A stretch of 42,632 nucleotides of DNA from Bacteroidota bacterium (GTDB taxonomy: Bacteria; Bacteroidota; Ignavibacteria; Kryptoniales; JAKASW01). Under the pieces are notes generated by a model that was not told the DNA's origin, made no database searches, and saw nothing but the letters and a program-made list of their open reading frames with translations. The stretch's first letter is position 1; each line of letters starts with the position of its first letter. A program made the position numbers and the translations under genes. The stretch is taken from contig JAJYRM010000023.1 in the NCBI GenBank assembly GCA_021794075.1, positions 1-42,632 on the forward strand. Direction: 5' to 3'. This document shows, piece by piece, positions 36,891 to 37,758 of the stretch.

Positions 36891-36991
36891 CGGTTGTCGG
36901 ATGTTTTATCGTCAATGTCAAGGGGTCAACTTCAGATGCGCGATTTTTAGCCGTTTTCGATGGTCGCTTGCGCAAATACGAATAAACTTTG

Positions 36992-37023
36992 TTTGCATTT
37001 GATATATCAAGAAGCTATTATTT
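36992..37023 (+). promoter_or_regulatory. Candidate promoter of the cold-shock gene with palindromic spacer
   Basis: TTTG (36992-36995), 20 bases, then TATTATTT (37016-37023). As a sigma-70 pair it is TTGCAT, 17 bases, TATTAT. The perfect 12-base palindrome TTGATATATCAA (36999-37010) fills the spacer and could be an operator. Consensus match is partial. Confidence 0.4.
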
Positions 37024-37059
37024 ACCCGCAAATAACAGTACACCGTTGTTTGCGCCAAA

Positions 37060-37076
37060 TGGCGCCCCAGGCGCCA
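37060..37076 (+). other. GC-rich hairpin in the cold-shock leader
   Basis: TGGCGCC (37060-37066), loop CCA, GGCGCCA (37070-37076). The seven-base stem is perfect. No T-run follows, so it is more likely a leader structure than a terminator of the kinase gene. Confidence 0.4.
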
Positions 37077-37288
37077 AGCCGCGTTTCGACTTAATGTCTG
37101 ATGCGGTGGTGGTGGCCGGTCCACTTTTAACGGTCGATACGGTCATGCTTTTATAGGTTGTAGCTGCAGATGTAATTCCCCGTGGGTCAGCTCCGTTGTT
37201 GTGGGTTCAAGACCCGCAGGATCCTGAAGACACGAGGCGTAGCATCATATGCAGGGGTGAAGCTCTCTTCTTGTCATGGTCTTCACCG

Positions 37289-37327
37289 GTCCCGACTCTT
37301 AAGCGGGATCCCGACACAAGTCGGGAC
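37289..37327 (+). promoter_or_regulatory. Two mutually exclusive hairpins in the cold-shock leader
   Basis: The outer pairing is GTCCCGACT (37289-37297) with AGTCGGGAC (37319-37327), nine bases. The alternative is two local hairpins: TCCCG/CGGGA (37290-37294 with 37304-37308) and TCCCGAC-ACAA-GTCGGGA (37309-37326). Both cannot form at once. The segment ends 76 bases before ATG 37404. Confidence 0.45.
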
Positions 37328-37403
37328 AATACTGTATAAGCCAAGAACATCTGGCGCGACGGCTCGGGTACGCATTTAGTAACATTACTGAAAGGATCCA
37401 GCA

Positions 37404-37604
37404 ATGGAGCAAGGAACCGTAAAATGGTTCAACGCAACCAAAGGATACGGCTTCATTTCCCGCGAGGGCGGTGATGACGTGTTTGTTCATTTCAAAGCCA
37501 TCATCGGTGAAGGCTACAAAACTTTGAAAGAGGGCGACAGAGTTCAATTTGAAGTTGAACAAGGCCCCAAAGGGTTGCAGGCAGCGAAGGTAAAGAAAAT
37601 ATAA
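37404..37604 (+). CDS. Cold-shock domain protein (CspA family)
   Basis: A 66-residue single-stranded RNA/DNA-binding protein. RNP1 is KGYGFISR and RNP2 is DVFVHF; the start [15 protein letters not shown] is a typical Csp N terminus. It acts as an RNA chaperone, in cold or in normal growth. Shine-Dalgarno AAAGGA lies just upstream of the ATG. The long upstream leader suggests control at the RNA level, and a strong terminator follows. Confidence 0.97.
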
Positions 37605-37622
37605 GCTGCCCATGCTTTCATG

Positions 37623-37657
37623 TCCCGGTTGACGAAACTCAGCCGGGATTTTTTTTT
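37623..37657 (+). terminator. Intrinsic terminator of the cold-shock gene
   Basis: TCCCGGTTGA (37623-37632), loop CGAAAC, TCAGCCGGGA (37639-37648), then nine T. The ten-base stem contains one G-U pair. Confidence 0.94.
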
Positions 37658-37758
37658 GCCTTTGTTGACTTGTCGATCTCTTTCTTCAACAGCATATGGA
37701 TGCGAAGGAGAAACTTTTTCCGAATAGTTCCGTAAGCTCTATCAAAAGGAGTCGGAAT

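Follow-up and report, generated by a model that had tools for sequence, protein, structure and literature searches.

The window analysed here, i.e., 42,632 nt of contig JAJYRM010000023.1 from a Bacteroidota bacterium, carries on its forward strand a csp gene with a long, conserved leader on its 5' side and an intrinsic terminator on its 3' side (Table 1). Promoter-like sites are more frequent in this region than in shuffled sequence (3 versus a mean of 0.9). At the probable promoter among them, the −10 box reads TATTAT in 2/11 and TATCAT in 9/11 sequences, with an invariant GCAAATAACAGTACACC directly 3' of it. The conserved −10 box and the conserved 5' end together suggest a transcription start at about 37028 and thus a leader of about 376 nt. 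Such a start would lie upstream of 37225, the end of the 5' complementary strand in the earlier note on this DNA, which had proposed that the leader could hide its own ribosome-binding site (RBS). Our first choice of promoter, an extended −10 box at 37146–37156 (TGCTTTTATAG), was dropped because, some 120 nt further upstream, all three families that have the leader show a better −10 box followed by the conserved 5' end.

Table 1. Features of the csp locus, in window coordinates
Feature	Position	Strand	Basis or remark
Probable promoter: TTTGCA, 18 nt, TATTAT	36992–37021	+	Motif search and conservation
Probable mRNA 5' end with hairpin GCAAATAAC-AGTACACC-GTTGTTTGC	37028–37053	+	Conservation, folding
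Upstream partner strand CTGCAGATGTAATTCCCCGTG	37164–37184	+	Folding, motif conservation, compensatory pair in L125
Anti-start-codon strand GCTCCGTTGTT	37190–37200	+	Conserved complementarity with start-codon region 37400–37410
Hairpin insert GTGGGTTCAAGACCCGC	37201–37217	+	Between the antisense halves; only in the source genome and its nearest relative (L004)
Anti-SD strand GGATCCT	37219–37225	+	GGRTYCT-like in most genus relatives
Switch strand: ACACGAGGCGTAGC (P1 5' strand) and TATGCAG (P2 5' strand, 37248–37254)	37230–37254	+	Alignment, folding
P2a, variable hairpin	37256–37287	+	3/7 pairs changed on both sides
P2b and P2c, optional hairpins	37289–37325	+	Absent in L012 and L013
P2 3' strand CTGTATA	37332–37338	+	Pairs with TATGCAG 37248–37254; relatives' alignment
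P3 hairpin GCCAAGAACATCTGGC	37340–37355	+	Near-identical sequence in f1 and f18 and in two leaders of f4
P1 3' strand, ending in CTCGGGTAC (37363–37371)	37356–37371	+	Relatives' alignment; motif count
Linker 5' of the SD, containing P4, a weak hairpin	37375–37392	+	92.7% of cells paired
RBS and start: AGGATCC AGCA ATG GAGC	37393–37410	+	Sequence; relatives' alignment
csp ORF, CspA-like cold-shock protein, 66 aa	37404–37604	+	ORF reading; orthologues in 11 genus genomes
Intrinsic terminator after csp	37622–37657	+	11-bp stem (37622–37649), then a T run

Distribution of the leader

A 291-base query finds the leader upstream of the orthologous csp in 11 of the 13 genomes of the genus, the source genome included, and the relatives' best matches are 71–97% identical to the query. 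The two genomes without it (G004 and G012) lack the orthologue and show no more than a csp paralogue of 49% identity; the leader thus accompanies this particular csp gene. The source genome has one copy of the leader; upstream of its second csp, on contig C142, the sequence is different. A DNA pattern made from the leader matches eight records in a named genome collection (Bacteroidetes bacterium/Candidatus Kryptoniota bacterium).

Two model searches and one pattern search extend this range. Model R1 hits 13/391 genomes of the class, including two leaders in another family (f4), and model R2 hits 5/32 f4 genomes, three of them beyond R1 and all five directly 5' of csp. R2 overlooked the majority of f4 leaders, so it was replaced in the wider search by a gapped pattern (CTCGKGTAC, SD, csp start), which matches 30/391 class genomes (11 in f1, 11 in f4 and 8 in f18) and 4/395 genomes of a phylum sample, all four from the leader's own genus; the reversed control matches 0/391. 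A separate match in G147 was dropped because the motif check did not place it before a csp gene. The pattern misses L097 and L099; with these two added, the collection comprises 32 leaders in three families.

In f4 there are 30 csp loci, 28 of them readable (L103 and L105 were excluded, as their csp start was not readable): 13 have this type of leader, 9 have a second type and 6 have neither (L080, L085, L088, L089, L096 and L098). The second type stands before another csp paralogue (L091–L095, L100, L102, L104 and L108), and in 7/9 cases its 5' GCACCG complements a CGGTGT/C shortly before the RBS, with ACACC-type 5' sides in L093 and L104. At L055, L077, L078 and L079, a second, more divergent csp follows closely 3' of the first, after a terminator-like hairpin.

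Pairings of the proposed closed and alternative forms

The strand GGATCCT at 37219–37225 is exactly complementary to AGGATCC at 37393–37399, which contains the SD just 5' of the csp AUG. The earlier note had singled out this 7-bp pairing and was correct about its positions and exactness; it is also beyond chance. However, it is only half of a larger helix that reaches outside the 37201–37403 interval considered there. A search of 11 leaders gives GCTCCGTTGTT with AGCAATGGAGC (37400–37410), 11 bp over the start codon, as the longest conserved complementarity, and the 11 bp and 7 bp make a bipartite 18-bp helix over both the SD and the AUG. In pairing with the RBS, the antisense segment of the source genome outdoes 500/500 shuffles (299/300 for a wider segment), and the fold of 37201–37430 has a z-score of −4.93, with 0/200 shuffles as stable.

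Comparison between genomes bears on the same helix. In alignment A3 (11 leaders), 94.1% of its cells are paired, and within the genus six pairs have changed on one side and still form, whereas two-sided covariation is absent because the RBS side is invariant. In f4, the RBS and the antisense strand both differ from those of the genus and have changed together, e.g., TCCATGGATGT with ACATCCATGGA (11 bp) in L055 and L087, with helices of 14 bp in L084, 10 bp in L083 and 13 bp in L090. The antisense duplex is matched by at most 15/300 shuffles in 14/24 leaders; the test is weak in L087 (37/300 as good), and in L009, L011 and L099 the duplex is no better than shuffles (114–160/300 as good). A blind version of the test in seven f18 leaders (L125 was left out, its switch strand being TACGAG) gave 326, 239, 37, 304, 10, 296 and 81 of 500, so 1/7 passes at 5%, and a short AUG-centred complement in f18 became visible only post hoc, after that failure. 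Hiding of the RBS therefore has good support in f1 and f4 and lacks it in f18, and with that exception the comparative data bear out the earlier note on this point.

The closed helix encloses P1, P2, P2a and P3, plus P2b and P2c where these are present. Over the whole closed structure, 95.3% of cells pair, compared with 34.9–41.3% when partners are slid by 1–3 columns, and 6/7 pairs of P2 covary in eight f18 leaders. The earlier note was right about a hidden RBS but misplaced the switching segment, which it put at 37289–37327. That segment can be drawn in two ways, but in relatives it folds as a pair of distinct hairpins (with 95% and 100% of cells paired), and L012 and L013 do without it, so it is an optional double hairpin instead. 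Sequences similar to these CCCGAC/GTCGGG hairpins occur elsewhere in the G003 genome (L024, L057 and L059), whose own csp leader is without P2b and P2c; they may represent a dispersed repeat, which would have entered the leader by insertion.

The strand with two exclusive partners is CACGAGG (37231–37237), which can pair with the downstream CTCGGGTAC (closed) or with the upstream CGTG at 37181–37184 (open). The open pairing came from folding with the RBS held unpaired, where the partners of CTGCAGATGTAATTCCCCGTG are the P1 and P2 5' strands: CGTG pairs with CACG 37231–37234 and GATGT 37169–37173 with GCATC 37242–37246. All 32 leaders have the switch strand CACGAG (TACGAG in L125), an upstream CGTG (CGTA in L125) and a downstream YTCGKGTA, but the leaders were partly collected by these motifs, so the count is a description rather than proof. 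L125 has changed on both sides, with CGTA/TACG for CGTG/CACG. Compensatory changes, for which the earlier note had pointed to relatives, thus occur here as well as between the families, where the RBS and its antisense strand have co-changed.

The alternative helix also leaves a trace in how leaders diverge. L006, L008 and L009 have a hairpin inserted exactly between CTGCA and GATGT, which is the interior loop of this helix, and the distal part differs yet stays complementary (GATGT/GCATC in g1, TTGCAA/TTGCAA in L055 and GATAGA/TCTATC in L056), with the L055 pair hardly formed in the predicted nascent fold at 10 °C. A helix scan of ten f4 leaders, which assumed no structure, returned CACGAGR with YCUCGUG, including a compensatory pair, and GUACAC at the 5' end with GUGUAC in the downstream strand; the two overlap and are therefore mutually exclusive. 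In the source genome, the 5'-end GTACACCG (37038–37045) complements CGGGTAC (37365–37371). The 5' element fully complements the P1 3' strand in 29/29 leaders where it was found, either as GTAC-N-CCG with CGG-GTAC or as GTACAC with GTGTAC. A pseudoknot of AGATGT (37168–37173) with ACATCT in the P3 loop is co-conserved in the genus; it was rejected in favour of the alternative helix because L055 and L056 lack it, the loop being changed or the upstream strand absent.

Folding during transcription and with temperature

All folds are nearest-neighbour predictions, which leave out proteins, magnesium and pseudoknots, and the energies of the closed state (A) and the open state (B) were obtained with energy penalties in 24 of the 32 leaders, f18 excluded. 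Folding predicts that the nascent RNA adopts B and the finished RNA A. In the nascent RNA of the 24 leaders, the mean upstream pairing of the switch strand is 0.82, versus 0.47 with a shuffled 5' part; at most 2/40 shuffles are as high in 14/24 leaders, whereas L005, L010 and L082 do no better than shuffles and L086 is weak. The f18 leaders, fetched later, reach at least 0.63 in 7/8 cases, with only 0.13 in L126. For the source-genome leader, B is at 0.83 before the RBS is made, and the full-length RNA is in A (RBS with antisense strand 0.81 at 37 °C). Its nascent B persists at 10–60 °C in transcripts from 37028, which supersede a temperature trend computed from the shorter transcript starting at TGCTTTTATAG.

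At equilibrium, A is favoured by 3–5 kcal/mol at 5–65 °C in the source-genome leader (A minus B is about −5 at 5–50 °C). This leader has no equilibrium cold trend and is predicted to be closed at all temperatures folded, so a cold effect in it must be kinetic or protein-driven. At 37 °C, A is favoured in 16/24 leaders and B in 5, with a balance near zero in the other 3, and the full-length prediction is open at that temperature in L006, L099, L106, L107 and L109. On cooling from 37 to 5 °C, 14/24 leaders are predicted to shift towards B by more than 0.5 kcal/mol, 5 shift towards A and 5 move by 0.5 or less, the source-genome leader among them. In full-length folds, L107 and L125 are in B at 10 °C and in A when warmer, and B also declines in L097 as temperature rises, with the opposite trend in L009, L012 and L013, where the full-length probability of B falls on cooling. 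Temperature control, which the earlier note named alongside control by a protein, is thus suggested at most: cooling is predicted to favour the open form in 14/24 leaders and the closed form in 5, and the source-genome leader is predicted to stay closed throughout.

Upstream of TGCTTTTATAG, the G006 leader (L006/L025) contains 26 nt that are the reverse complement of this leader's TCGGGTACGCATTTAGAAACATTA segment, and the prediction that L006 stays open may be due to it.

Proposed mechanism and relation to known systems

We give a probability of about 60% to the reading that this is a conserved csp leader of about 376 nt with two exclusive structures, closed A and open B, acting as a cold-linked translational switch. 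Conservation, the pairings with their covariation and the order of the strands, all taken from sequence comparison, point this way. In state A, CACGAGG would pair with the downstream CTCGGGTAC, enclosing P2 and P3, and this would put the antisense strand 37190–37225 onto the SD and AUG as the bipartite helix, turning translation off. In state B, CACGAGG would pair with the CGTG strand upstream, which is transcribed earlier, and in many leaders the 5'-end GTACACCG would take CGGGTAC, which would shut the antisense strand into a loop and leave the RBS free. Since the strands of B are made first, the nascent RNA should start in B and rearrange to A once the RBS appears; an exclusive, nascent-like alternative form with a free RBS is predicted in silico. 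Cold should slow the rearrangement and, in many relatives, also stabilise B relative to A, and for these reasons Csp would be made in the cold. Cold induction of csp is likewise what we infer for the gene, together with an involvement of Csp proteins, which may help to hold B.

Instead of temperature, the binding of a protein or small molecule could set a conserved translational switch by deciding between A and B, with the P1/P3 core and its near-invariant loop as the binding site (e.g., for Csp or another RNA-binding protein). P3 (GCCAARAASATCTGGC) and the P1 strands are conserved in sequence, beyond pairing, in f1 and f18 and in two leaders of f4, which speaks for this, as does the source-genome leader's indifference to cooling at equilibrium, and PMC8155936 describes E. 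coli Csps as proposed remodellers of their own leaders. However, 11/13 f4 leaders keep the switch strands with P3 lost or changed, so the P3 site is not needed for the architecture, and no ligand or protein site was identified; we consider this reading unlikely, if worth keeping in mind. We think it improbable that the leader is static, i.e., that the closed helix does no more than limit basal translation and the alternative fold simply follows from GC-rich sequence. The source-genome leader strongly prefers state A and the alternative pairing is no better than shuffles in several leaders, as a static leader would have it, but both kinds of partner for the switch strand are kept in 32/32 leaders, the inserts of L006, L008 and L009 sit precisely where the two halves of the alternative helix meet, and L125 replaces CGTG/CACG by CGTA/TACG.

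An ordinary RNA thermometer, whose RBS helix melts at high temperature, would share the RBS-hiding helix. Heat induction would be odd for a cold-shock gene, however, and folding of the source-genome leader gave no exposure of the RBS by physiological heating: its mean unpaired probability rises only from 0.03 to 0.19 over 5–70 °C in the shorter transcript, and from 0.03 to 0.11 over 10–60 °C with the start at 37028. We give this explanation almost no weight.

With the cold-linked switch as the preferred reading, the leader can be compared with known ones. No Rfam family reaches its gathering score in the window, and Rfam matches no known riboswitch aptamer there. A permissive search of 36980–37700 with RF01766 (cspA thermoregulator) gave 9.7 bits, versus a gathering score of 78, at 37476–37549 inside the ORF. 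The leader is thus no member of that family, in agreement with the earlier note, which had expected a switch built from sequence elements other than those of the cold-shock mRNAs of other bacteria. No published description of this leader was found in the literature searched, which covers subscription journals thinly. As far as these searches show, the two-state csp leader is a new family of a known functional kind.

The E. coli cspA mRNA is described as having a closed form at 37 °C, in which the SD and the start codon are partly hidden, and a cold form, which nascent fragments resemble (Giuliodori et al. 2010, as cited in PMC9947658). The present leader is like that account of the thermosensor in its probable length and in its predicted closed and open forms and open-like nascent fold; unlike E. 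coli cspA, its strands, hairpins and RBS partner are others, and the source-genome leader has no equilibrium cold trend. RNA thermoswitches of csp genes are also described for Listeria monocytogenes cspA and Staphylococcus aureus cspB and cspC (PMC8155936), where alternative leader structures set csp translation, with more in the cold, as proposed for the present leader. The Listeria leaders, at about 100–125 nt by that source's description, are set apart from the probable 376 nt here, and the Listeria and Staphylococcus switches were tested experimentally (PMC8155936), whereas the present one is a prediction from sequence.

The cold box is described as a conserved element in the 5' UTR of enterobacterial csp mRNAs (PMC6719143). 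The present 5' element differs from it in complementing the P1 3' strand. In enterobacteria, the cold box has the sequence TGACGTACAGA. The 5' end of the leader (37028–37053) has what we take to be a resemblance to this sequence, clearest in f4 (TTAACGTACACC).

Tentatively, and with more doubt than confidence, we propose an undescribed family of csp leaders, in one class of uncultured Bacteroidota-related bacteria, that works by strand exchange: the 5' end (cold-box-like GTACNCC) and the upstream CGTG would hold the P1 strands apart during transcription, leaving the RBS open in the cold. Such a family may have evolved independently as a counterpart to the E. coli cspA switch, or be distantly related to the cold box of that mRNA. 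If this reading holds, the kinetic logic of two states established experimentally for cspA in E. coli would recur, with unrelated sequences, in a distant uncultured group, and annotation would gain a new structured RNA family. The comparative evidence for both states would make the essential part of a cold switch directly testable.

The coding region holds one further candidate element, a conserved hairpin that the first csp codons could form (GAACCGT..ATGGTTC, window positions 37414–37430), just inside the ORF.
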